Assembly: GCA_003151625.1 (NCBI GenBank)
Contig: PLYC01000016.1
Coordinates: forward strand, 1-34,438
Direction: 5' to 3'
Length of the DNA stretch: 34,438 nucleotides
Origin: Candidatus Doudnabacteria bacterium
GTDB taxonomy: Bacteria > Patescibacteriota > Doudnabacteria > UBA920
The notes under the pieces are model-generated. The model did not search any database. It worked only from the letters and a program-made list of their open reading frames with translations, and was not told the origin of the DNA. Positions within the stretch are counted from its first letter, which is position 1. Each line of letters begins with the position of its first letter. A program made the position numbers and the translations under genes. Shown here in pieces: positions 175-28,628 of the stretch.

Positions 175-3100
175 ATGCATAGAATTTACGTAAAATATAC
201 CATCCCCGACTCCAGGGCGAATGTCAAAAAAAACCAGTTCGGGGCTTTGGGACTAAAAAATAAATTGGACGCCGTGCATTTGGCCGAATGCTATACCATA
301 GACGCGCGGCTAAACCAAAAACAAATTCAGGCCGCCAAAAACCTTTTAGCCAACCCTTTGGCCCAGTCCGCGGATACCGCTTTAAAAGCGCCGCGGAATT
401 TTAATTATGCCGTGGAAATCGGTTATTTACCCGGCGTTACGGATAACATTGGCAACACCGCTAAAGAGACGTTGAGCGATGGGGCAAAGGTTAAGTTTAA
501 ACAGGAAGAGAATGTGTATTCGAGCCAGGTTTATTTTATTTCCTTTGATAAAAACCCTCACCCCAACCCTCTCCCAAAGGGAGAGGGAGGACTGCAGCTA
601 GACATAAATAAAATCACCAACTCGCTTTACAACCCCCTCATCCAGAACGCGTCCGTTAAGTCGCGCGAGAAATTTATAAAAGACGGCGGGATGGATGTTG
701 TTGCGCCAAAGGTAAAACTTACGGCTTCAAATAAAGTTAGCTTGGTGGATTTAAATGTGAGTGATGAAGAGCTGATAAAACTGGGGAAACTGGGGATTCC
801 TGAAAGCAATCACCCCCACCTAGCCTCCCCCCTCAAGGGGGAGGAAACTGCAGCTGGTATTATTCCCTCCCCTGCCGGGGTTCCCCATTTATCGCTTGGC
901 GAAAATGGGGTGGCTCGAGGGGGAGGGTTAGGGAGGGGTGAATCACAAGAAAAACGGCGCGGACCGCTGGCTTTGGGCCTTCCTGAATTAAAAGTTATCC
1001 GCGAACATTTTAACAAATTGGGGCGGAAACCAACCGACATAGAGCTGGAAACTCTGGCTCAAACCTGGAGCGAGCACTGCAAGCACACCATATTCGCCGA
1101 CCCCATGGACGAACTGGAAAAAGGGCTTTACAAAACCTACATAAAAGGCGCCACGGAAAAAATCCGCGCTCAAAAGGTCAAGGATAAAAGATTAAAGATA
1201 AAGGATAGTACCGGCGACTTCTGCGTCTCGGTTTTTACGGATAACGCGGGCGGAATTATTTTTGACAAAGACTACATTGTCTGCCATAAAGTGGAAACTC
1301 ACAATACGCCTTCGGCACTGGATCCGTTTGGCGGCAGCATAACCGGTATTGTCGGCGTCAACCGCGATGTTTTGGGCTTTGGCCTTGGCGCCAAACCAAT
1401 TGCCAATTTTTTTGGCTTTTGCCTGGCTTCACCAGATGACAAAACGGAACTGTTCCGCGACCCCGAACTAAAAAACCCCATGCTCTCCGCCCGCAGAATT
1501 ATGGACGGCGTAATTTCCGGCATTAATTCCGGCGGCAACCAAAGTGGCATCCCCACGTCTTTGGGCTTTTTAAATTTTGACGCACGATATAGAGGCAAGC
1601 CTTTAGTGTTTGCCGGAACCGTGGGCTTAAGCCCCAAAAAAATCGGCACACGATTATCGTGGCAAAAAAAAGCCGAGGCTGGCGACTACATAGTGGTGGT
1701 CGGCGGCCGAGTGGGGGCGGACGGCATCCATGGCGCAACTTTTTCTTCGGAAGGACTGGATAAAGACAGCCCAGCCACGGCTGTGCAAATTGGCGATCCC
1801 ATAACCCAAAAAAAACTTAGCGACGCTATTGTTAAAGAAGCACGCGGACAAAACCTGTACAACAGCATTACCGACTGCGGTGCCGGAGGGCTCTCTTCCG
1901 CGGTTGGCGAAATGGCCTCACAAGCGGGCGACCCTTCAGGGTCGTCCCGAGCGAAGCTCTCGAGCGCAGCCGAGAGGGCTCAGTCGAGGGGAGGCTGTGA
2001 GGTAACACTTAACAAAGTACCGTTAAAATATCCGGGGCTCGCTCCTTGGCAAATTTGGATTAGCGAATCCCAAGAGCGAATGGTGCTTTCGGTTCCAAAA
2101 AACAAGTGGACGAGATTTGAAAAGCTGATGGAAAAACGCGGGGTGGAAGCTACTGTAATCGGAACATTTACCAAATCCGGCAACTGCGTGGTAAAATACG
2201 ACAACAAAATTGTTTTAAATGTTGATATGGATTTTTTGCATAACGGCAGGCCCATTAAACATCAAACAACAAAACCACCTCACGTCGTCATCCTGAACCC
2301 GAATGCATCTGAGGGTGAAGGATCTCATCAAAAGTTAAGGGATTCCTCGTCGGCTGCACTCCTCGGAATGACGTCAAGAGGAGAATCTTTCAATCTTTTA
2401 ATCTTTAAATTACTCTCCTGCTCCAATATCGCCTCCACCGAATTTGTAAACCAACAATACGACCACGAAGTCCAAGGCTCAAGCGTGCTAAAGCCCCTGC
2501 AGGGTAAAGGAAAAATAAATTCTGAAGCCGCGGTAATTAGGCCTGTGCTAAATTCCAAAAAAGCTTTGGTGCTTTCTTACGGTCTAAACCCCTCTCTTTC
2601 GGAATTAGATTCTTACAATATGGCCGCGTGCAGTATAGACTCCGCCATTCGCGCGGCTGTGGCCGTAGGCGCGGATATAGATTATATGGCACTACTCGAT
2701 AATTTTTGCTGGTGCAGTCCCGAAGACCCTCATCGCCTGTGGCAATTAAAAGAAGCCGCCCGCGCGTGCTACGACACGGCAGTGGCTTTTGGTACGCCGT
2801 TTATTTCCGGCAAGGACAGTATGTATAACGACTTTAAAGGTTTTGGTGCCGATGGAAAAGCATTAAAAATTTCCATTCCGCCGACTTTGCTTATTTCCAC
2901 CATTTCCGTAATCCCCGACGCGGAAAAAACCGTTTCCCTTGACGCCAAACTCCCCGGCGACTTACTCTATATATTAGGGGGTACTAATGATGAAATGGGA
3001 GGTAGCGAGTATTCATCACTTTTGGGGAAACCCGATGTATTCCCAGTACCGGCCGTCAACGCACAAACAAACCAAAAACTCTACAAAACTTTCTACCAAG

Positions 3101-3465
3101 CCGTTCAAAAAAATCTTATAGCCTCCGCAATAAGCCTAAATCGCGGCGGACTTTCGGTTGCGCTCTTAAAAAAACTTATGGGCGGCGGCTTGGGCGCAGA
3201 AATTAATTTAGCAGGAGTCCCAGGTAACTGGAAAGAAAATAACCAGGCTCTATTTAGCGAAAGCCAAGGCAGAATTTTAGTTAGTATCGCGCCAAAAAAT
3301 GCGATAACTTTTGAAAAGTTAATGTTAAAAAATACTATCGCAAAAATTGGCAGCTTAACCACAAAACCTGTTTTAACAATTACCGATAAAACCGGCAAAG
3401 AAATTTTAAATTTAAAAATAGTAGATGCGTTAAAGGCTTATAAATCAACTTTCCAAAACTACTAA
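175..3465 (+). CDS. purL: Phosphoribosylformylglycinamidine synthase, PurS-PurL fusion with in-frame repeat insertions
   Basis: This enzyme converts FGAR, glutamine and ATP to FGAM, the fourth step of purine synthesis, using ammonia delivered by PurQ. Residues 1 to about 65 resemble a PurS-like domain, so PurS is fused here. The PurL core follows, with WSEHCKHTIF near residue 300, KVETHNTPSALDPFGG near 370, a GGRVGADGIHG loop and the TDCGAGGLSSAVGEMA motif. The HNT variant of the usual HNH occurs in a known PurL subgroup. The protein is longer than expected because four palindromic DNA elements are translated in frame near residues 127-139, 212-257, 586-607 and 704-733, all between conserved blocks. 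The reading frame stays open throughout, so the protein is probably functional. purQ follows with no gap. The start ATG lies just after a dispersed repeat, with no clear ribosome binding site. Confidence 0.96.
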   Translation: MHRIYVKYTIPDSRANVKKNQFGALGLKNKLDAVHLAECYTIDARLNQKQIQAAKNLLANPLAQSADTALKAPRNFNYAVEIGYLPGVTDNIGNTAKETLSDGAKVKFKQEENVYSSQVYFISFDKNPHPNPLPKGEGGLQLDINKITNSLYNPLIQNASVKSREKFIKDGGMDVVAPKVKLTASNKVSLVDLNVSDEELIKLGKLGIPESNHPHLASPLKGEETAAGIIPSPAGVPHLSLGENGVARGGGLGRGESQEKRRGPLALGLPELKVIREHFNKLGRKPTDIELETLAQTWSEHCKHTIFADPMDELEKGLYKTYIKGATEKIRAQKVKDKRLKIKDSTGDFCVSVFTDNAGGIIFDKDYIVCHKVETHNTPSALDPFGGSITGIVGVNRDVLGFGLGAKPIANFFGFCLASPDDKTELFRDPELKNPMLSARRIMDGVISGINSGGNQSGIPTSLGFLNFDARYRGKPLVFAGTVGLSPKKIGTRLSWQKKAEAGDYIVVVGGRVGADGIHGATFSSEGLDKDSPATAVQIGDPITQKKLSDAIVKEARGQNLYNSITDCGAGGLSSAVGEMASQAGDPSGSSRAKLSSAAERAQSRGGCEVTLNKVPLKYPGLAPWQIWISESQERMVLSVPKNKWTRFEKLMEKRGVEATVIGTFTKSGNCVVKYDNKIVLNVDMDFLHNGRPIKHQTTKPPHVVILNPNASEGEGSHQKLRDSSSAALLGMTSRGESFNLLIFKLLSCSNIASTEFVNQQYDHEVQGSSVLKPLQGKGKINSEAAVIRPVLNSKKALVLSYGLNPSLSELDSYNMAACSIDSAIRAAVAVGADIDYMALLDNFCWCSPEDPHRLWQLKEAARACYDTAVAFGTPFISGKDSMYNDFKGFGADGKALKISIPPTLLISTISVIPDAEKTVSLDAKLPGDLLYILGGTNDEMGGSEYSSLLGKPDVFPVPAVNAQTNQKLYKTFYQAVQKNLIASAISLNRGGLSVALLKKLMGGGLGAEINLAGVPGNWKENNQALFSESQGRILVSIAPKNAITFEKLMLKNTIAKIGSLTTKPVLTITDKTGKEILNLKIVDALKAYKSTFQNY
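554..590. repeat. In-frame palindromic element in purL (single-hairpin form)
   Basis: The core is a C-rich/G-rich hairpin, CCCTCTCCC-AAA-GGGAGAGGG, preceded by CCCTCACCCCAA. It is translated as HPNPLPKGEGG within PurL, between the N-terminal domain and the next conserved block. It appears to be a one-hairpin relative of the longer elements at 808, 3858 and 7585. Confidence 0.75.
808..946. repeat. In-frame palindromic element in purL (long form with nested hairpin)
   Basis: The outer arms, CACCCCCACCTAGCCTCCCC on the left and a G-rich near-complement ending GGGAGGGGTG on the right, frame the element. Inside are a CCTCCCCCCTCAAGGGGGAGG hairpin (817-841 region) and a second hairpin, CCCCATTT...AAAATGGGG. 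AATCAC occurs at both ends. The element is translated as a Pro/Gly-rich linker beginning HPHLASPLKGEE. Its first 39 bases are identical to the element in purD at 7582. Confidence 0.85.
1930..1995. repeat. In-frame palindromic element in purL (GACCCT/AGGGTC type)
   Basis: Two adjacent hairpins are visible: GACCCT-TC-AGGGTC and CTCTCG...CGAGAG. The segment interrupts the PurL core between GEMA and GGCEVTLNKVPLKYPG, where family members normally have only a few residues. It belongs to a different sequence family from the C/G-tract elements. Confidence 0.75.
2286..2373. repeat. In-frame palindromic element in purL (CGTCATCC...GGAATGACG type)
   Basis: The ends CGTCATCCTGA and TCGGAATGACG form an imperfect inverted repeat enclosing AAGGATCTC and GATTCCTCGTCGG. 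Repeats of this GTCATCC/GGAATGAC style are scattered through many bacterial genomes. Here the element is translated after the conserved DFLHNGRPIK segment of PurL without breaking the frame. Confidence 0.8.
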
Positions 3466-4332
3466 ATGAAATCTCTATCCAAAATTATTGTGCTGGCCGG
3501 CTACGGCCTTAACTGCGAAGAAGAAACCGCGCATGCTTTTAACCTGTCTAATGGCGATGCTGATATTGTGCATATAAATGATTTAATTGCCAAGCCAAAT
3601 TTACTCAAGAATTATCAGATACTCGCAATTCCCGGCGGATTTTCCTACGGGGACGATTTAGGCAGTGGCAAAGCCTATGCCAACAAGCTTAACAACCATT
3701 TGAGAGAACAGCTAACTAATTTTGCCGCTCAAGACAAATTAATTATTGGCATTTGCAATGGTTTTCAAATTTTAACAAACCTGGGGCTTCTGCCCGGAGT
3801 CCTGACATTTAACGACAACAACCGCTATACCGACCGGTGGGTGGATGTAAGGATCAACACCCCCACCCAGCCTCCCCCCTCAAGGGGGAGGAGCCACAGA
3901 TTAGCCCAAAAAGATGAGTTCCCCTCCCTGGAGGGGAGGGGTCAGGGGAGGGTGATGAGCCCCTGGCTAACCGGCATCAAAAATCTTTCCCTCCCCATAG
4001 CCCACGGCGAAGGCAAATTTGTGGCAGATGACAAAACAATGAAGTCCATAAAAAAGCAAAAAATGATAGCTGGTGTATACTATAAAGGAGAAATTTGCAA
4101 TTACCAAAATCTCTCATATAATCCCAATGGCTCAACTCTGGACATCGCTATGCTGACATCCCCAAACGGCAAAATCCTGGGCACTATGCCACACCCCGAA
4201 CGGGCAATGTTCTTTACCCAGGCTCCCAATTGGCCGCTACTAAAAGAAAAGCTAATTCGCTCCGGCAAACCGCTGCCCAGATTCGCTGATGGTCTGCAAA
4301 TTTTTAAAAATTCTATTAATTATTTTAAATAA
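3466..4332 (+). CDS. purQ: Phosphoribosylformylglycinamidine synthase glutaminase subunit
   Basis: This class I glutamine amidotransferase hydrolyses glutamine and passes ammonia to PurL. The nucleophile motif GICNGFQIL (Cys near residue 97) and the C-terminal MPHPERAMF with the His/Glu of the triad are both present, as is the PGGFSYGDDLG oxyanion-region motif. At 288 residues it is longer than usual because a palindromic element adds about 33 residues (131-163), beginning TPTQPPPSRGR, before the WLTGI segment. The ATG follows the purL stop directly, implying translational coupling. PurL, its fused PurS-like domain and PurQ should form one FGAM synthase complex. Confidence 0.96.
   Translation: MKSLSKIIVLAGYGLNCEEETAHAFNLSNGDADIVHINDLIAKPNLLKNYQILAIPGGFSYGDDLGSGKAYANKLNNHLREQLTNFAAQDKLIIGICNGFQILTNLGLLPGVLTFNDNNRYTDRWVDVRINTPTQPPPSRGRSHRLAQKDEFPSLEGRGQGRVMSPWLTGIKNLSLPIAHGEGKFVADDKTMKSIKKQKMIAGVYYKGEICNYQNLSYNPNGSTLDIAMLTSPNGKILGTMPHPERAMFFTQAPNWPLLKEKLIRSGKPLPRFADGLQIFKNSINYFK
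3858..3954. repeat. In-frame palindromic element in purQ
   Basis: The outer arms are CACCCCCACCCAGCCTCCCC and a matching G-rich arm ending GGGGAGGGTG; two inner hairpins are present (CCTCCCCCCTC/GAGGGGGAGG type and CCCCTCC/GGAGGGG). It is the same family as the purL 808 and purD 7585 elements but is read in a different frame, giving PTQPPPSRGR rather than PHLASPLKGE. Confidence 0.85.
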
Positions 4333-6750: not shown

Positions 6751-8112
6751 ATGAAAAAAACCATTTTAATTATTGGGGGCGGCGGACGGGAACACGCTTT
6801 GGCTTGGAAACTTAAACGGTCGCCGCGCGTTGGCAAAATTTATACTGCTCCGGGAAACGCGGGAACATCGTCAATCGGCGAAAATGTTACGATTGCCGCG
6901 ACCGATATTTTGGCGTTGGCCAACTGGGCTCAAAATAACAAAATAGATTTTACGGTTGTGGGTTCCGACGATGCTCTGGCTTTGGGTGTGGTGGACGAAT
7001 TCCAAAAACGCGGCTTAAAAATTTGGGGGCCAAGCAAAGCCGCCTCGCAAATAGAATCCAGTAAGGCTTTTGCCAAGAAGCTGATGAAGAAAAATAATAT
7101 TCCTACGGCGGAATTTGAAACTTTTACCGATTACCAAAAAGCTTTGCAATATATAGAGGAAAAGAGCACGCCGATTGTCATTAAAGTATCGGGGCTTGCT
7201 TTGGGCAAGGGAGTTACTGTTTGTAAAACGCTTGATGAAGCCCAGGCGGCGCTTAAAACAGCCATGATCGATAAAGCTTTTGGCGAAGCCGGCTCGCAAA
7301 TTGTCATTGAGGAATTTTTGGAAGGACAGGAATTTTCCATACACGCGTTTTGTGACGGCAAAAATTTTCAACTCCTTCCGTCATCACAAGACCATAAACC
7401 TATTTACAACGGGGGCCTCGGACCAAACACCGGCGGCATGGGCACCATTGCTCCGGTGCCGTGGATTAGCGAAGCGATGATGTCTGAAGTAGCCACTACA
7501 ATTGTAAAACCGGCGCTGGATGGTTTAAAAAATTTAGGTTCGCCGTTTGTTGGATTATTATATCCCGGGCTGATGGCCATAAATCACCCCCACCTAGCCT
7601 CCCCCCTCAAGGGGGAGGAATTCTCAGTTCCCCTCCCTGAAGGGGAAGGGTCAGGGGAGGGTGCTTTTAAAGCCATAGAATTCAACGCCCGCTTCGGCGA
7701 CCCGGAAACCCAAAGCTATATGCGCCTGCTAAAAACCGATCTTCTTGATATATTAGAGGCTTGTGTAGATGGAACAATTGATAAAATTAATATAAAATGG
7801 TCTAAAAAATCCGCGTGCTGTGTTGTACTCACCTCCGGCGGATACCCGGGCAAATACGAAAAAGGCAAAACAATCACAGGCATTAAAGAAGCGGAAAAAA
7901 TGGAAGAGGTAATTGTTTTCCAAGCCGGAACCTCCATCAGAAATAATCAGCTGGTAACCAACGGCGGCCGCGTCTTGGGAATTACGGCAATTGCGGATAA
8001 TTTACAAACCGCCCTCAACAAAGCCTACGCCGCGGTAAAACTAATCAACTTTGAGGGAATGCATTATAGAAATGATATTGGATTTCAGTCTTTAAATGTT
8101 AAAGGTGGGTAA
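6751..8112 (+). CDS. purD: Phosphoribosylamine-glycine ligase (GAR synthetase)
   Basis: PurD ligates glycine to phosphoribosylamine with ATP, the second pathway step. It opens with the family signature ILIIGGGGREHALAWKL, has the ATP-grasp lid region VIKVSGLALGKGV and the GLGPNTGGMG loop, and NARFGDPETQ near the metal site. A palindromic element adds about 27 residues (279-305; HLASPLKGEE... through GSGEGAF) between GLLYPGLM and AIEFNARFGDPE, that is, between two strands of the ATP-grasp core. At 453 residues it is about 25-30 longer than usual, matching the insert. The start lies 8 bases after a perfect palindrome, and no strong ribosome binding site is visible. Confidence 0.96.
   Translation: MKKTILIIGGGGREHALAWKLKRSPRVGKIYTAPGNAGTSSIGENVTIAATDILALANWAQNNKIDFTVVGSDDALALGVVDEFQKRGLKIWGPSKAASQIESSKAFAKKLMKKNNIPTAEFETFTDYQKALQYIEEKSTPIVIKVSGLALGKGVTVCKTLDEAQAALKTAMIDKAFGEAGSQIVIEEFLEGQEFSIHAFCDGKNFQLLPSSQDHKPIYNGGLGPNTGGMGTIAPVPWISEAMMSEVATTIVKPALDGLKNLGSPFVGLLYPGLMAINHPHLASPLKGEEFSVPLPEGEGSGEGAFKAIEFNARFGDPETQSYMRLLKTDLLDILEACVDGTIDKINIKWSKKSACCVVLTSGGYPGKYEKGKTITGIKEAEKMEEVIVFQAGTSIRNNQLVTNGGRVLGITAIADNLQTALNKAYAAVKLINFEGMHYRNDIGFQSLNVKGG
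7585..7663. repeat. In-frame palindromic element in purD
   Basis: The left arm CACCCCCACCTAGCCTCCCC and the right G-rich arm ending GGGGAGGGTG enclose two hairpins. The first 39 bases from 7582 match the element in purL at 808 exactly and are read in the same frame. It is 79 bp long, shorter than the purL copy, which contains an extra nested hairpin. Confidence 0.85.
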
Positions 8113-15467: not shown

Positions 15468-15501
15468 TCCGCCTCGGCTCGCGCCGAGCGAGACGGGTCG
15501 G
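15468..15501. repeat. G+C-rich hairpin element after purB
   Basis: The sequence CCGCCTCGGCTCGCGCCG followed by AGCGAGACGGGTCGG forms a strong hairpin around GCTCG-CGC-CGAGC. Its first 18 bases match the left arm of the 51-bp hairpin at 22429-22479 at 16 positions, so both look like copies of one palindromic family. Confidence 0.6.
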
Positions 15502-22344: not shown

Positions 22345-22373
22345 TTGATAAAAATTACATAAACTGCTAAAAT
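22345..22373 (+). promoter_or_regulatory. Putative promoter of the tRNA-Asn locus
   Basis: TTGATA and TAAAAT are separated by 17 bases, and the predicted start is about 30 bases before the duplicated tRNA fragment. It was probably the original tRNA-Asn promoter and now lies upstream of the fragment, the GIY-YIG gene and the intact tRNA. Confidence 0.55.
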
Positions 22374-22404: not shown

Positions 22405-22490
22405 TATCGTTCGGGAGTAGCTCAGCGGCCCGCCTCGACTCGCGTCGTTAAGGCTCATTACGAGTCGACGCGAGGCGGGTAGAGCAATCG
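22405..22490 (+). pseudogene. Duplicated 5' part of tRNA-Asn, split by a hairpin element
   Basis: Bases 22405-22428 and 22480-22490 together equal, without mismatch, the 35 bases at 22730-22764: 6 upstream bases plus the first 29 of tRNA-Asn, ending inside the anticodon stem. A 51-bp palindromic insert interrupts the copy in the D-loop. It lacks the anticodon and 3' half and cannot be a functional tRNA. Confidence 0.9.
22429..22479. repeat. 51-bp palindromic insert in the tRNA fragment
   Basis: The ends CCCGCCTCG and CGAGGCGGG are exact complements, with further pairing of CGCGTCG and CGACGCG inside and a loop around TTAAGGCTCATTA. The left arm resembles the hairpin at 15468. It lies exactly between GCGG and TAGAGC of the D-loop. 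Confidence 0.85.
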
Positions 22491-22493
22491 CTT

Positions 22494-22745
22494 ATGGCTT
22501 ACGTTTATATCCTTAAAAGTATCAATCATCCTAAAACCTATACTGGTAGCACAGATCGTACTATAGAGGCTAGGTTGGCTGAGCATAATAATGGGTTTAG
22601 CACGTACACCAAGCGGTTTGCTCCTTGGAAATTAATATATTCCGAGGAGTTTGAGAATCTGTTAGATGCTAGGCTAAGAGAGCAGTATTTAAAAAGTGCT
22701 GCAGGTAGAAGGTTTATAAAAAAGAATAATATCGTTCGGGAGTAG
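22494..22745 (+). CDS. Small GIY-YIG endonuclease-like protein
   Basis: This 83-residue protein is a single GIY-YIG domain: YVYILKSINHPKTYTGST gives the two-strand GIY-YIG motif (here VYI and TYTG), followed by the catalytic Arg in TIEARLAEHNNG, WKLIYSEEF, and a Glu/Lys-rich helix. It is of the UvrC-N-like type common in small genomes; cleavage specificity is unknown. The gene lies between two copies of the tRNA-Asn 5' region, and its last codons and TAG stop are formed by the intact tRNA's acceptor stem. No ribosome binding site is visible before the ATG. The arrangement suggests a mobile or homing-like unit. Confidence 0.88.
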   Translation: MAYVYILKSINHPKTYTGSTDRTIEARLAEHNNGFSTYTKRFAPWKLIYSEEFENLLDARLREQYLKSAAGRRFIKKNNIVRE

Positions 22746-22810
22746 CTCAGCGGTAGAGCAATCGGCTGTTAACCGATGGGTCCTGGGTTCGAATCCCAGC
22801 TCCCGAGCCA
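22736..22810 (+). tRNA. tRNA-Asn (anticodon GTT)
   Basis: The 75-base gene folds as a full cloverleaf: acceptor TCGGGAG/CTCCCGA, D-stem GCTC/GAGC, anticodon stem ATCGG/CCGAT with loop CTGTTAA, T-stem CTGGG/CCCAG with loop TTCGAAT, discriminator G and an encoded CCA. It is intact although the GIY-YIG stop overlaps its 5' end and the serine recombinase stop lies on the opposite strand in its anticodon loop. Confidence 0.97.
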
Positions 22811-24268
22811 ACTAGCATTTTTGTGTGCTGAAACTATACCGGCAAACACGGGTTTCAGCGTAAACACAGGAGTTTTGCCACGAAGACGGCAGTTCTGAAG
22901 TAAGAAATTCAGAAACTGTCGTTTTTCGTTAGGTTCAGAACTTTCAAAGATTTCTTTAGCCCGTTTGCAAATATCAAGCAATTTGCTGGCGGTTAAATAA
23001 TGATTTTCATCGGCTGTGCTGTGTTCCTGTATTTGTTGCGTAATATCAAACTGTTTTGCTTTATACTCACGCAACTTTTTGTCGTATATGTCGGCAGTAA
23101 TACTACTGTCCATTTTCTCATCAAACATTTTGCTTATACGGTCGTCAATCTTGTTATACTCGGCTTGCAAGGTTGCTATGGCCTGTCGGTAAAAATCCTG
23201 CTCGGCTTCGGTTGTGCTCTTGAGCTTGCCAATAACATAATCAATGCCGTCCTGCGGCAAATTTAACTGCTCTAAATACTCATATACGGGCTTCAGTAGC
23301 TCTTTTTCGGGCACATAGACCCTTTTGCACTTGCCTTTGTAATTGGTGCAACTGTAATAAATAAACTTGCCCTTTTTCGTTTCCGGCGTAATGGTGCAAC
23401 CGCATACATCGCAAGTTATCAGCCCTCTAAAAATGAATGGCTTGGCCGCATACTGGAATGGTTTTTTGTTATAGCTTTCCCTAACCTTTTGGCATTTCAA
23501 AAATAGGCTATAAGAAATAATCGGGTCATACTTATGCTTATACTCTTTGCCTTTAACAAGCATATAGCCGTAATAAAAAGGGTTCAATAAAATACATTCA
23601 ATCTGCCGTGCCTTAAGCGGATTGCCGTAATAACCAACCAAGCCCCATTTTGCGCTTTCATTGGCAACCATTTTCATTGAGTGGCCGCCCTTTGCGTATA
23701 ACTCAAAGATTTTTAAAATCATCGGGGATTTAACATCATCAAGCTCAACCCAAACTCTACCCTCAACATCCTGCGTGTTGATATAGCCTATCGGGGCTTT
23801 GCCTGCCCATTCGCCGTCTTTGCGCTTTTGCTCGTTGCCACGCTTCACATTGTCGCTTAACTGCAAAACATAGCTTCGGGCAAACATAACGGCCATATCC
23901 CATTGCAAGAGCTGTGAGCTGTTGGAATCTTTGCTTAAAATAAGATTTTCCCGCACAAAGTGAATTTCAAGTTTGCCCTGCTTACGCAAGTCATCCAAAA
24001 TTACGCTTTCTTTAAAACTGCGCTGTAAGCGGTCAACTGTTTCAACAGCTAAAGCCAATATTTCTTTTGACTGTTTGATTGTTTCTAAAATTTTATCAAA
24101 TTCTTTTCGGCTGTCTTTGGTTGAACTTTCTGCAATTTCAACAACCTGCAAAAGCTCTAAACCTTTGCGGTGCACATACTCGGTCAATCGTCTGGTCTGC
24201 GCCGGTATAGACTGCCCCTCTTCGGCCTGCTCTTTGGTTGAAACTCTAGCTAAAATTATTGCTTTCAT
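22769..24268 (-). CDS. Large serine recombinase (integrase)
   Basis: This 499-residue protein should catalyse integration and excision of the element. The N-terminal resolvase domain begins MKAIILARVSTKEQ with Ser10 as nucleophile, and VDRLQRSF holds the conserved Arg residues. A recombinase domain follows (about 160-270), then a zinc ribbon CDVCG...C...C near 305-335 and a coiled coil near 360-430. It starts in a 4-base ATGA overlap with res, so it is the last gene of the RM operon. The final residues GSWDSNPGPIG are antisense tRNA-Asn, and the TAA lies in the anticodon loop. In the circular form the frame would continue instead into sequence now at 32267-32350. Confidence 0.93.
   Translation of the reverse strand: MKAIILARVSTKEQAEEGQSIPAQTRRLTEYVHRKGLELLQVVEIAESSTKDSRKEFDKILETIKQSKEILALAVETVDRLQRSFKESVILDDLRKQGKLEIHFVRENLILSKDSNSSQLLQWDMAVMFARSYVLQLSDNVKRGNEQKRKDGEWAGKAPIGYINTQDVEGRVWVELDDVKSPMILKIFELYAKGGHSMKMVANESAKWGLVGYYGNPLKARQIECILLNPFYYGYMLVKGKEYKHKYDPIISYSLFLKCQKVRESYNKKPFQYAAKPFIFRGLITCDVCGCTITPETKKGKFIYYSCTNYKGKCKRVYVPEKELLKPVYEYLEQLNLPQDGIDYVIGKLKSTTEAEQDFYRQAIATLQAEYNKIDDRISKMFDEKMDSSITADIYDKKLREYKAKQFDITQQIQEHSTADENHYLTASKLLDICKRAKEIFESSEPNEKRQFLNFLLQNCRLRGKTPVFTLKPVFAGIVSAHKNASWLGSWDSNPGPIG
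22805..22812. other. Left attachment site core (att)
   Basis: GAGCCAAC includes the tRNA discriminator and CCA and is repeated at 32351-32358. A short shared core is typical of serine recombinases. The exact crossover bases within the 8 cannot be fixed. Confidence 0.7.
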
Positions 24269-26880
24269 AGGTTTAATTTTTCCCTAAACACGGTATCAAA
24301 TACCTGTTTAGCGTTTTGCTCGTTGTAAAATGGCAGCCCGATAAGTTTAAGTTTGCCTTTTTCAAAAAGCGTTTCTATTTTATATTCCTTTTCAATTTCC
24401 TGTAAAAATTCTTCTTTCCATTTGTCTTCCAGTAAACGATTACTACCTTTCGGCTCTACAAATAATTGAAAAGAAATGGCATTTTTGCCGCCTTTGGTTT
24501 TCGCAAACAACACAAAGTCCGGTTCTATGGCCTGCCCATCGCTGAATTTGTAAATCTTAAACAGCCGTTCATTCCTAAGTAGATATACATCATCATACTT
24601 TTTCTTTAAGTCATCCATTGCCTGCCGGATAAATTGGATAAAGTATTTTTCTTCCGATGTGCCGTAATTTTCGTTATACATATACCAATCCTGTGTGCTT
24701 AAATCCAGCCGCAAGGTGTCGTTCGTGGTTTCGCTCATTGCAACACCAAATTCTTTTTCATCACCGCCGCTCAAAATTTCTAATGTTTTGTCCTGTGCTA
24801 CGGCCTTTATCCTTTGGGCGTAAAACTCCTTTGTGCCTATAAATTCGCTGTTACCGGCCGAAATTTTGCTAGCTAAGGCCTTAAAAGCAGTCAATGCGGC
24901 CTTAAACTTGTCCTCATTAGATAAACCATATAACCTACCATTTTTGGCCGAAATTGCAACGCTTACTAAGCCGCAATAATGTTCTGAAGATAAAAATTCG
25001 TCTATGGATTTTAGTTTAGGAAAATAAGCTGCCAAAGAAATAAATTGGTAAAAATCAATTTTATCAATTGCTTTTCTCAAAATGTTTTTGTTAAAATCAG
25101 TGAGTTTGAATGTCTGTGTCTTCAATTGTTCCATTACCAAATTTTCCTGCTCGCTGCCAAAGATAGCGGACTCGGCGGAATGACCAGTTGTTATACGGTG
25201 ATTAAAAATCGTATTTTGGACAATATCGCTTAAACTTTTGACACTGGAATAACTTTTCTTTTCTTGTTTGTTGGTAAAAATTTGCGCTGTATTCCAAAAC
25301 GGCGTTTTCTTTACGCTGTCCTTGATATAAACCCTAAAGGTATCTCTTTTTGCAGGCGCAATTCCTATATTTATCAATTCGCTGCGTAATTCGGCGATAT
25401 AACGGCTGTCCGTTAAGCTGTGATAATGCAGCTCTTCCAAAATCCGCAATTCGTTGTCTGGTATGCCATCATATTTACGCTTGTCTTTTTCCTGCTCATT
25501 ATTTACTACAAAAGGATAATACCTTGCGCCACGCCCAATTAGTTGGGCTTCTGAAATGGTATAGCTTCCGGCTTTATTGCTTTTTGTATTTGTGTCCCTG
25601 GTTTCGTAAAGCCTAACAATGTCAAACAAATTCAAAACATCCCAGCCCTCATTAAGCATATTAGTGGTAAAAACAACACGTGTTTCGTTGTTGTAATCTT
25701 CAAGACTGTTTACTTTAATCTGTTTTTCTTCGCTGTCGGCTTTGCTATTTATAATCAAACATTTTTCCGGCGCAAAATCTTCCTGAATTTCCTTAACCAA
25801 ATTAGAGGGCGTTATTTTATTGGCCGCAAAATAATCAAAGACCTGCTTCATTATGCCGTCCGTGCCGCCGCTTTCAACCTTTTTAATATCGGCAACCGTT
25901 AAGCCTTTAATCGTTTTATAAAAAATCTGTTCAAATTCTTCTGAATCTTTAATCTGTTTAGACTTAAATAGTATTACCGGCTTTAACTGGATTTTATGCT
26001 TCTCGGCAACCTTGCGCCGATATTGGCTTAAAATTACGGCCTGCAACGCTCGCATTTTAACGTCCCAGTCAGACTGTAATAATTGCACATCTTTAGAAAA
26101 GCCGTCTTCACGGAAATTTTTAAGTGTGTATTGATAAATAATTTTATCGGCATATTTGCGAGCTACGGCTTCGTGCTTTAGTTCAACCGTAGCCGTATAT
26201 TCCAGCATTACATTTTGCTCATTGGATTTGAAAATTCTGTTTACCGTATATTCCCAGCTTTTGGTTTCTTCCAGCTCTTCCTTGTCCAATTTTGACTTTG
26301 TAAGGGTGTTTATATGGTGTGCTTCGTCAGACAAAAAAGCCACTTTGATGTTTTCAAAGTCTGCGTATGTTACGGCATTTTCCGATGGGGTGTTAAGGCG
26401 GCTATGCAGGCCTTGAATGGTAGTAAACAGGATATTGATGTTATCGGTATTTGTGGCTTCAAAATTTTCCACTTCCTTAACCTCAATTTCCTTGTCATTA
26501 AAAACAATTTTTTCAGCAAATAAATACTTGCTGGATGACTTGTCTAAAAAATTCCTTTGGGTCTTTTTTATAATGTTCGTGCTGTTTACAAAAAAGATAA
26601 AATTGCGGTAGCCCAAAGAATACAGATACAAAATATCAGCGGCCATTAAAAGTGTCTTGCCGCTGCCGGTAGCCATATGAAAAAGCAAATGCACGGGGCG
26701 AGTAGCTTTTTTATAGCGGTTCAAGTAATACAAAAAGCGTGCAAGGGCTTCTTTTTGGTATGGCCGAATAACAAACTTTTGGTTAAGGTTTTTTACTACA
26801 AAATCAGGAATATCCTTGTCCAAATGTTCGTCTTCCGATAGCGTATTAAATTTTCTAACAAGAATTTCGTCAGTTTCCAT
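24265..26880 (-). CDS. Type III restriction enzyme, Res subunit
   Basis: Res supplies ATP-dependent translocation and DNA cleavage with Mod. The superfamily 2 helicase motifs are clear: VIRPYQKEALARF (Q-like), MATGSGKTLLMA (Walker A, residues 69-80), FLSDEAHHI (DExH) and QLIGRGARYYP (motif VI). The C-terminal nuclease reads EPDFVLF ... FQLFVEPKG, the PD...E-x-K pattern. The 871-residue length is normal for the family and there is no frame break. The gene starts 8 bases after mod and overlaps the recombinase start by 4 bases. The restriction target cannot be inferred. Confidence 0.92.
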   Translation of the reverse strand: METDEILVRKFNTLSEDEHLDKDIPDFVVKNLNQKFVIRPYQKEALARFLYYLNRYKKATRPVHLLFHMATGSGKTLLMAADILYLYSLGYRNFIFFVNSTNIIKKTQRNFLDKSSSKYLFAEKIVFNDKEIEVKEVENFEATNTDNINILFTTIQGLHSRLNTPSENAVTYADFENIKVAFLSDEAHHINTLTKSKLDKEELEETKSWEYTVNRIFKSNEQNVMLEYTATVELKHEAVARKYADKIIYQYTLKNFREDGFSKDVQLLQSDWDVKMRALQAVILSQYRRKVAEKHKIQLKPVILFKSKQIKDSEEFEQIFYKTIKGLTVADIKKVESGGTDGIMKQVFDYFAANKITPSNLVKEIQEDFAPEKCLIINSKADSEEKQIKVNSLEDYNNETRVVFTTNMLNEGWDVLNLFDIVRLYETRDTNTKSNKAGSYTISEAQLIGRGARYYPFVVNNEQEKDKRKYDGIPDNELRILEELHYHSLTDSRYIAELRSELINIGIAPAKRDTFRVYIKDSVKKTPFWNTAQIFTNKQEKKSYSSVKSLSDIVQNTIFNHRITTGHSAESAIFGSEQENLVMEQLKTQTFKLTDFNKNILRKAIDKIDFYQFISLAAYFPKLKSIDEFLSSEHYCGLVSVAISAKNGRLYGLSNEDKFKAALTAFKALASKISAGNSEFIGTKEFYAQRIKAVAQDKTLEILSGGDEKEFGVAMSETTNDTLRLDLSTQDWYMYNENYGTSEEKYFIQFIRQAMDDLKKKYDDVYLLRNERLFKIYKFSDGQAIEPDFVLFAKTKGGKNAISFQLFVEPKGSNRLLEDKWKEEFLQEIEKEYKIETLFEKGKLKLIGLPFYNEQNAKQVFDTVFREKLNL

Positions 26881-26888
26881 AATAAGTT

Positions 26889-28628
26889 TTAACTGTAAAA
26901 TTGTTTGTTGATTTTCTTTTCTTCGGCCGGAATTTTATAGGTTGTATCTTCCATTTCGGCGTAATTTACATACAGATGATTTTTGTCCAAACATTCCAGC
27001 AAAACTTTTTTCTGCTCGTCTAAGGTCAACTGGTCAAACTGCTTTTGGTCAAACTTGCTTAAATCAACCTCATACCGGAAAAATGCTTCAGCCTGCATTT
27101 TTTTATAAACAGCTGTGAGTTCCTTTGTGGTTTTGGCTTCCTGTATTGCCTGCGTATATACATCGTTCCACTGCTTCAATTCTGCATATACGAAAGAACC
27201 GCCGCCCTGCCAATTAACCGATTTTGATATACCGTTCTGCTCCCCAGCAATTACTTTCTTTATTCTTTCTTTAGTAATAGCTTCTATATAGTCCAGTTGT
27301 TCGCATAATATATATCTTCTTCCTAATTTGTGAGCTACGACTCCGGTCGTCCCAGTCCCAGCGCAAAAATCTAAAACGATGTCCCCTTTATTTGTTGCTA
27401 CCTCTATTATTCTTTTTAATAATTGTTCTGATTTCTGTCCCTTAATTTCTTTAGTTCCTAATAATTTTGATACCTTTTCCCCAGCGAAAGAAACAATTGC
27501 AACGCTATTTAATTTGTCATAATCACTGCAATTCCAAGTATCTTCCAATGGATATTTTTCTGGCAATCCTACACTTGCCAAAAATTCAAAAAAACTTTTC
27601 TGCTCATCTTTTTTAATCTTTAATTTATTGAAGTAATTGAATATCTCTTTTCTATCATCATTGTTGAATCTTTCAACAAAATCTTTTCTGGTATTATAAA
27701 GTTTATTAAAAATAAAGTTGTCTGGATTATTTGAATAAAATAAAATGGTATCGTGATTCCTTATGTAGTTATTGGCAATAGTCTTGTATCCAGAAAGCCA
27801 GCCTATACGCCAGATTATCTCTCTTTGGAAATTTTGTCTGGTAAATACCTCGTCCATTAGCACCTTCAAGTAGTGGGCTTCATTGTAATCAATGTTTACA
27901 TAAATACTCCCATCATTAGACAATAGCTCCCTCGCTATCTTTAGCCGATTTTCCATAAAAGTCAGCCAAGTTGAATGATTAAAGCTATCATTATAGTTAA
28001 ACCCGCTATTCTCTGTGTTATAGGGCGGGTCAATATAAATTAACTTAACTTTGCCTCGGTATTTCTTTTTTAGGGAGTGCAAAGTCAAAAGGTTGTTGCC
28101 CTTGATAATTAAATTATCTTGTTCAGTTATCTGCTCAAGTTTATGCTCGCCGGTTTTGTCTATCTTTTTAAAATTAGTTAAAACTTTCGGTTCAAACAGG
28201 CGGTCAATTTCATCCGGTGCAAGAATTTCATTATAAAAAATCTCATTGCGCTTTGTGTCTTCCTTATCCTGCCCGCCCTCTAAAACGCAATCCTTATACG
28301 GCCAAGCTAAAACCACTTTACCGCTGTCTTTTAAATATTCGCTTCCATCCGCAAGTCCGATATGGTTCTTAAACGCCGTAAAAGAGTTCGGTAAAAATTC
28401 CTTGTTGTTTATAAATTTGATAAATTTGTCCTGCTCAAAAACCAAACTACCGGCAGCTTGCAAAAAAAAGTGCTCCTTAATCTGATTGTTTTTCAGTAGC
28501 AATTCCAAAAGTGATTTATCCAATTTTAAAGCAGCTTCGGTAACGGCGTTTTTTAATAATTTACCCTCGGCAAAAAAGCGTTCATCTTTTTCCAAAAGTT
28601 TGGCTACATCGTTCATTAAATTTTGCAT
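26889..28628 (-). CDS. Type III DNA methyltransferase, Mod subunit
   Basis: Mod recognises the target and methylates adenine at N6 using SAM. Motif IV is IDPPYNT at residues 199-205, and motif I is LDFCAGTGTTG at 419-429; the order IV before I identifies a beta-class enzyme, as in type III systems. The N-terminal 170 residues are the family's usual helical region, and the segment between the motifs holds the likely target-recognition part. The protein is complete at 579 residues. It lies 2 bases after the HTH gene and 8 before res. No simple repeat tract suggests phase variation. Confidence 0.92.
   Translation of the reverse strand: MQNLMNDVAKLLEKDERFFAEGKLLKNAVTEAALKLDKSLLELLLKNNQIKEHFFLQAAGSLVFEQDKFIKFINNKEFLPNSFTAFKNHIGLADGSEYLKDSGKVVLAWPYKDCVLEGGQDKEDTKRNEIFYNEILAPDEIDRLFEPKVLTNFKKIDKTGEHKLEQITEQDNLIIKGNNLLTLHSLKKKYRGKVKLIYIDPPYNTENSGFNYNDSFNHSTWLTFMENRLKIARELLSNDGSIYVNIDYNEAHYLKVLMDEVFTRQNFQREIIWRIGWLSGYKTIANNYIRNHDTILFYSNNPDNFIFNKLYNTRKDFVERFNNDDRKEIFNYFNKLKIKKDEQKSFFEFLASVGLPEKYPLEDTWNCSDYDKLNSVAIVSFAGEKVSKLLGTKEIKGQKSEQLLKRIIEVATNKGDIVLDFCAGTGTTGVVAHKLGRRYILCEQLDYIEAITKERIKKVIAGEQNGISKSVNWQGGGSFVYAELKQWNDVYTQAIQEAKTTKELTAVYKKMQAEAFFRYEVDLSKFDQKQFDQLTLDEQKKVLLECLDKNHLYVNYAEMEDTTYKIPAEEKKINKQFYS

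Follow-up and report, generated by a model that had tools for sequence, protein, structure and literature searches.

Why does a small nuclease gene lie between a partial and an intact copy of the same tRNA gene? The question is raised by positions 22405–22810 of the 34,438-nucleotide stretch analysed here (the window), which belongs to Candidatus Doudnabacteria of the CPR. At this locus, a GIY-YIG open reading frame (ORF) separates a partial 5′ copy of tRNA-Asn from the intact gene. We consider it probable that the locus holds a small homing-like mobile element that lives in tRNA genes and consists of an Slx1-like GIY-YIG nuclease gene and a replacement tRNA end, which is the 5′ end here and the 3′ end elsewhere.

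All features of the unit lie on the forward strand. The intact tRNA-Asn(GUU), located by ARAGORN at 22736–22810, is the sole tRNA-Asn gene found in the 1.5-Mb assembly and must therefore have stayed functional. Upstream of it lies a displaced 5′ fragment of tRNA-Asn in two pieces, TATCGTTCGGGAGTAGCTCAGCGG (22405–22428, 6 upstream bases and tRNA nucleotides 1–18) and TAGAGCAATCG (22480–22490, tRNA nucleotides 19–29). The pieces are separated in the D-loop by a 51-bp palindrome (22429–22479) of the dispersed CCCGYCTCG..CGAGGYGG family, which also has solo copies (at 15469 of the window and others). The preliminary description had reported a 35-bp duplication comprising 6 upstream bases and tRNA bases 1–29; this duplication is real and both copies are located, while the split of copy 1 by the palindrome had been missed. 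We take the unsplit copy (22730–22764) as the element-borne replacement for the tRNA 5′ end. An exact repeat of 24 bp within 34 kb is far above chance expectation, and the split fragment is predicted to fold as RNA at −37.1 kcal/mol, a stability reached by 0 of 200 shuffled sequences. The only gene between the two tRNA-Asn copies is the GIY-YIG nuclease gene (22494–22745, 83 amino acids, Slx1/UPF0213-like), and no site-specific recombinase is present inside the unit. Its stop codon, TAG at 22743–22745, is supplied by bases of the intact tRNA-Asn, as had been noted before. In an Rfam search of this locus at the gathering threshold, the tRNA is the sole match, with no self-splicing intron around the ORF.

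A promoter-like site, TTGATA-N17-TAAAAT, is found at 22345–22373. By itself the site is at chance level (shuffled sequences have 1.3 on average). The identical TTGATA..TAAAAT occurs immediately 5′ of the intact tRNA-Asn in two relatives with an empty locus (G018, G008) and 5′ of the fragment in an occupied one (G016), and we take the window site as the original tRNA-Asn promoter at this locus.

On the other side, a serine recombinase gene (22769–24268) runs with its 3′ end into the 3′ part of this tRNA-Asn, which is what an element integrated there should show. The GIY-YIG gene might thus be a passenger, and this element or another integrase might have made the tRNA duplication. However, the recombinase uses the tRNA 3′ end and the duplication is at the distant 5′ side, an opposition already pointed out in the preliminary description; moreover, the window contains no second 3′ att copy for the recombinase island, and the short GIY-YIG units in the other inspected cases contain no recombinase. 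The serine recombinase element was rejected as the source because it is on the wrong side and lacks a second att copy, and the passenger reading as a whole is very unlikely. The recombinase gene is followed by a type III restriction-modification pair (24265–28628), which forms the island on this side of the tRNA. Integrase-type islands usually use the tRNA 3′ end.

The window ORF matches Pfam PF01541 with an E-value of 7e-15. Among ten aligned tRNA-associated proteins, Y5, Y16, R27, and H31 are invariant and E63 is nearly so. The AlphaFold model comprises one confident GIY-YIG domain (pLDDT 92), and the 83-residue, single-domain protein has no separate C-terminal DNA-binding (NUMOD-like) region. 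Foldseek assigns a probability of 1.00 to matches with At-HIGLE and with Slx1 of Slx1-Slx4 (6seh, 7cq2, 7wme), at an E-value of about 0.015 for these structures and TM-scores of 0.64–0.68 on the query (E-values are modest overall, about 0.01–0.04), whereas matches to I-TevI (probability 0.16) and UvrC are weak. As modelled, the nuclease fold is closest to that of the branched-DNA nuclease Slx1 rather than to that of I-TevI-type homing endonucleases. Comparison of the Zunongwangia and Salegentibacter copies reveals 14, 9, and 36 changes at the three codon positions; the dominance of the third position indicates that the protein is under selection.

Is the arrangement confined to this locus? The host genome contains nine PF01541 matches, eight of which are small genes, and six of these eight adjoin a tRNA gene (at L006, an assembly gap runs through the tRNA, which was identified by visual inspection). 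Two GIY-YIG genes besides that of the window lie immediately 5′ of tRNA genes, one of them with an equally split fragment. At tRNA-Gln of the host genome (L002), a 5′ fragment with a D-loop palindrome of the window's family is followed by a GIY-YIG gene and the intact tRNA. The same or a closely similar upstream layout occurs in other genomes of the order at tRNA-Asn (L028), tRNA-Gln (L024, L029, L042), and tRNA-Glu (L050).

Counts agree with this association. A tRNA or tmRNA gene lies within 250 bp of 15 out of 35 GIY-YIG genes, six of these 15 being hand-checked host-genome cases, versus 16 out of 394 control genes, which were the remaining genes of a 400-kb portion of the host genome (Fisher p = 2.5e-10); this difference corresponds to a 10-fold excess near tRNAs. 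At loci selected by their tRNA, partial tRNA copies are present in 8 of 11 with and 11 of 54 without a GIY-YIG gene (p = 0.0014), a difference that is significant only when pooled over three surveys. Loci that have partial copies but no GIY-YIG gene could represent remnants or non-autonomous units. Together with the array at L206, these 11 loci also show that tandem or partial tRNA copies exist without a GIY-YIG gene, as would fit a scenario in which the tRNA 5′ end was duplicated in tandem by chance and the gene ended up between the copies by accident. Against such an accident, the compound anatomy recurs at many unrelated loci and in several phyla, GIY-YIG genes are enriched near tRNAs, and a palindrome almost always splits copy 1. 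The preliminary description had named uniqueness of the arrangement as favouring chance; since the layout recurs at many tRNA genes, chance duplication was rejected and retains next to no probability.

Orthologous tRNA-Asn loci gathered across the family irrespective of GIY-YIG presence form the basis for comparing empty and occupied sites; a DNA search with the left flank of the window across the genus gave no close empty-site match. About half of the same-family genomes have a tRNA-Asn gene with such an insertion. The GIY-YIG gene lies 5′ of tRNA-Asn in eight loci (G000, G001, G002, G003, G004, G007, G011, G016), all of which are arranged as tRNA promoter, palindrome-split 5′ tRNA fragment, gene, and intact or intron-bearing tRNA. 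In the empty loci (G008, G012, G013, G014, G018, G020), by contrast, the promoter stands directly 5′ of tRNA-Asn. The ORF ends in tRNA sequence with the same TAG in G000, G002, G004, G007, and G016, while fragment and palindrome flank the gene on both sides in G001 and G002. Many occupied loci differ in palindrome sequence and position, and the proteins compared are about 40–59% identical to that of the window; because palindromes, positions, and proteins all differ, several independent invasions of tRNA-Asn are likely. Some palindromes lie outside loops, at position 7–8 in G001 and G016 and in the anticodon stem in G004.

In G015, fragment and palindrome are kept and the gene is absent, the palindrome having the position and nearly the sequence of that in G001. 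Removal of the gene by recombination between the repeats, as proposed in the preliminary description, is possible but was not seen: this sole apparent loss affected the ORF alone. Such an ORF-less remnant also speaks against a host function in tRNA quality control or repair that is tied to tRNA expression and not mobile. Co-orientation with the tRNA, termination inside it, and purifying selection would all suit a host gene, yet its presence is patchy at orthologous tRNAs, different relatives have it at different tRNAs, empty sites exist, and units are amplified in tandem. Thus, a host function is highly improbable.

The anticodon loop of tRNA-Asn(GUU) is interrupted by group I introns (RF00028) in several same-family genomes (L092–L100), about ten of which have the gene split there. 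The GIY-YIG protein could accordingly be imagined as the detached homing endonuclease of such an intron, and G002, G007, and G016 indeed combine an interruption of the anticodon loop with an upstream GIY-YIG gene. However, the window and four other occupied tRNA-Asn genes are intron-free, as are most other target tRNAs, and the interruption in G016 appears to hold an HNH-like ORF of its own. We rejected this origin, to which we attach very little probability, because the introns occur in relatives but are not needed.

The homing-like element is not restricted to tRNA-Asn or to the CPR. A scan of named genomes with four tRNA-Asn-associated proteins yielded 24 loci, picked by protein similarity alone, of which 20 were found by reading to lie at a tRNA or tmRNA gene, including three in genomes that had supplied the queries. 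Among the scan loci are a Bacteroidetes tRNA-Arg (L144) with the form seen in the window, two from isolates, namely Shiella aurantiaca (tRNA-Ser) and Pedobacter zeae (tRNA-Asn), and others from Ignavibacteria (tRNA-Met), Omnitrophica (tRNA-Glu), Levybacteria, Sungbacteria, and further groups. Further isolates carry such genes at tRNA-Arg (Salegentibacter, Zunongwangia) and at tRNA-Leu (Shiella). Overall, the further targets comprise tRNA-Gln, Glu, Arg, Leu, Pro, Tyr, Ser, Phe, and Met genes in Bacteroidetes isolates, Ignavibacteria, Omnitrophica, and other phyla. In a sample of the Salegentibacter family, the six genomes whose proteins are nearest to that of Salegentibacter (itself included) all have the gene at tRNA-Arg; another genome of this flavobacterial family has three tandem units 5′ of tRNA-Pro. 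Many of the compared loci come from metagenome assemblies, but isolate genomes carry the units too, which makes an assembly artefact unlikely. The replacement end is identical to the displaced end in the window and different from it in L183, L002, and L148; in Zunongwangia, the 5′ half of the intact tRNA differs from the displaced 5′ half. Occupied and empty alleles of one site exist both for tRNA-Asn of the Doudnabacteria relatives and in Pedobacter.

In a tree of 49 tRNA-associated proteins, which is based on few columns and leaves many forks unresolved, the side of the tRNA (5′ or 3′) changes 7 times, compared with 10–19 times in shuffles, and the tRNA isotype 27 times, compared with 30–36. 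Conservation of side and isotype exceeds that in 200 of 200 shuffles, yet both switch repeatedly on the tree. Taken together, the preliminary view that a homing-like nuclease invades tRNA genes and makes them whole again with a 5′ part of its own gains support, as judged from sequence comparison, from the many tRNA/GIY-YIG pairs, the empty orthologous sites, and the tendency of lineages to keep their target. The search it had suggested, for other small GIY-YIG genes with partial tRNA copies in related genomes, finds many of the same anatomy in several phyla.

On the 3′ side, the element takes a mirror form in which the intact tRNA is followed by the GIY-YIG gene and then by a displaced tRNA 3′ end that a palindrome interrupts. 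Here the palindrome is often in the T-loop, as in Shiella tRNA-Ser (GGTTC|AATCC), tRNA-Phe (L161), tRNA-Met (L151), and tRNA-Asn (L148), and in the anticodon arm in the Pedobacter mirror form. At L148, the displaced tRNA-Asn carries palindromes in all three of its loops, and the one in the T-loop is repeated on both sides of the insertion. The flanks of occupied and unoccupied Pedobacter loci are 96–97% identical, and the terminator after the displaced 3′ end is also found at the corresponding place in L199, whereas the terminator of the intact tRNA is different. Three loci without the gene (L198, L199, L205) consist of an intact tRNA, a terminator, and a T-arm whose loop is replaced by a palindrome (..CCTGAGCG..TCGAAGG..), and L205 has two or more such units in a row. 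By their sequence, the gene-less units in Pedobacter relatives look like non-autonomous versions. In two of these relatives (L205, L206), tRNA-Asn ends and palindromes form tandem units, with a terminator in L205 and no GIY-YIG gene between them.

No displaced tRNA end was found at several genes on the 3′ side (L001, L005, L008, L055, and the tmRNA group). The latter are small GIY-YIG genes about 110–170 bp past tmRNA, with an intervening palindrome that directly adjoins the tmRNA 3′ end (L015, L017, L018, L034, L156); no displaced tmRNA end was seen at these five loci. A second group of small GIY-YIG genes (L003, L036, L044, L047, L049, L053, L057, L058, L061) lies between the arms of long palindromes of the GTCATCCC..GGAATCCC type or similar. 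Inverted repeats flank the ORF of 19% of GIY-YIG genes versus 2.4% of control genes, an excess that mainly reflects this GTCATCCC-type group rather than the tRNA class.

The displaced tRNA end is interrupted by a palindrome in nearly all resolved cases. Folding energies were adopted for these inserts because an ungapped palindrome score is too crude for bulged hairpins; for 20 palindromic inserts taken from fragments, the folding z-scores lie between −1.7 and −8.2, with a median of −3.8, and all but three of these inserts (17 of 20) start with CC or TCC. Elsewhere in the window, purine biosynthesis genes (175–3465, 3466–4332, 6751–8112) contain in-frame insertions that resemble translated palindromic repeats (NPHPNPLPKGEGG, HPHLASPLKGEE, EFPSLEGRGQGRV).

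The palindrome of the window belongs to a dispersed family with solo copies, and two genes for Y1 transposases are present in the host genome. The palindromes could therefore be moved into hairpin loops by a REP-type Y1 transposase (RAYT), and the GIY-YIG gene could be an independent invader that exploits the tRNA transcription unit. Nevertheless, a palindrome is present in nearly every resolved displaced end beside a GIY-YIG gene, which independent neutral insertion would not produce. In addition, no Y1 gene was noticed in the inspected GIY-YIG/tRNA units; in the window, the ORF inside the unit is GIY-YIG and the Y1 (HUH) genes lie elsewhere in the genome. We regard such a division of labour as unlikely.

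How might the homing-like element work? Comparison of the loci shows that the unit inserts into a tRNA gene, that an end which is carried or duplicated makes the tRNA complete again, and that a palindrome is present in the displaced end, and where; the role of the palindrome and the route are our proposal. The nuclease would cut a tRNA gene that is still empty, at an arm loop or close to one, perhaps when the gene is folded as a single strand. Repair of the break from a donor copy would then bring in the nuclease gene and the replacement end, giving a complete tRNA. The displaced end would remain by the original promoter (5′ form) or terminator (3′ form), and its palindrome in most cases occupies the D-, anticodon-, or T-loop. 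This palindrome would inactivate the displaced end as a tRNA and abolish the nuclease site, so that recutting is prevented. As the layout suggests, the original promoter may drive the nuclease gene and the tRNA together, with tRNA processing then releasing the nuclease message.

Several observations count against the model. The intact tRNA retains every tRNA base of the presumed target, and an occupied allele would escape cutting only if the site spans the upstream junction or if the enzyme requires a particular structure. Further, the protein has no separate DNA-binding domain, some palindromes are outside loops, and some 3′-side genes have no displaced end. A wider reading, which we find conceivable but doubtful, posits a new class of mobile element in bacteria: its Slx1-like GIY-YIG nuclease would read structure, recognising folded tRNA-gene arms and other hairpins, put palindromes in the hairpin loops, and exchange tRNA ends. 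Such an element could also provide the mobiliser that is missing for palindrome families without a known transposase.

A published description of a GIY-YIG gene combined with a tRNA end was not found in the open-access literature searched. In the same literature we found no system with exactly this structure, in line with the preliminary description; the nearest are fungal mitochondrial mobile ORFs and phage SegB. The mobile ORFs, described for Allomyces atp6 and Glomus atp6, atp9, cox2, and nad3, pair an endonuclease ORF with a foreign gene-end copy that replaces the displaced native end, outside a self-splicing intron (PMC3630166). The tRNA units share the trait of an endonuclease ORF with a duplicated gene end that rebuilds the gene. 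In contrast, the mobile ORFs occupy mitochondrial protein genes and encode LAGLIDADG in the atp6 case, and the available text mentions no palindromes in displaced ends (PMC3630166), whereas the tRNA units use either end of bacterial tRNA genes and encode a GIY-YIG protein that is very small and Slx1-like. The second precedent, SegB of T-even phages, is a free-standing GIY-YIG homing endonuclease that adjoins tRNA genes and cuts within them (PMC13096335). By our own comparison, its motif RAWTSGAAC, which reads GTTCSAWTY on the other strand, resembles the conserved T-loop. Unlike the elements described here, SegB belongs to phages and lies beside, not inside, tRNA genes, and the available text describes neither tRNA-end replacement nor a palindrome scar (PMC13096335).

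Other systems share single traits. Slx1-type and UPF0213 GIY-YIG proteins (PMC1564403; PDB 6seh, 7cq2, 7wme, 1zg2) have the closest folds and a single GIY-YIG domain. Slx1 cuts branched DNA and, like its prokaryotic relatives, is described as a repair enzyme; the available section describes no mobile habit in tRNA genes (PMC1564403). GIY-YIG insertions in CPR rRNA genes likewise affect an RNA gene and match neither group I nor group II introns, but that study judged the GIY-YIG cases to be outside spread by homing, and its available sections describe no gene-end replacement (PMC11270868). Integrase-type islands also enter tRNA genes, restore them, and leave a partial tRNA, but they carry an integrase and measure about 9–23 kb (PMC9897764), while the GIY-YIG unit of about 300 bp is recombinase-free and can replace the 5′ end. 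REP palindromes are dispersed as well, some families being without a known mobiliser; the known one is a Y1 transposase, not GIY-YIG, and the part of the source available describes no tRNA-loop habit (PMC3733652).

The locus thus apparently represents a widespread kind of mobile DNA that has so far been undescribed. Large islands are known to dock at tRNA genes by means of integrases; a unit of about 300 bp, equipped with one nuclease of 80 residues, appears to match their feat, at either tRNA end, in several phyla, and repeatedly in one genome. A likely role thereby emerges for the small GIY-YIG proteins that abound in CPR and Bacteroidetes, and many partial tRNA copies are accounted for. Two questions also become accessible to direct tests: how tRNA genes are chosen by a nuclease that has no separate DNA-binding domain, and how palindromes without a known transposase spread.
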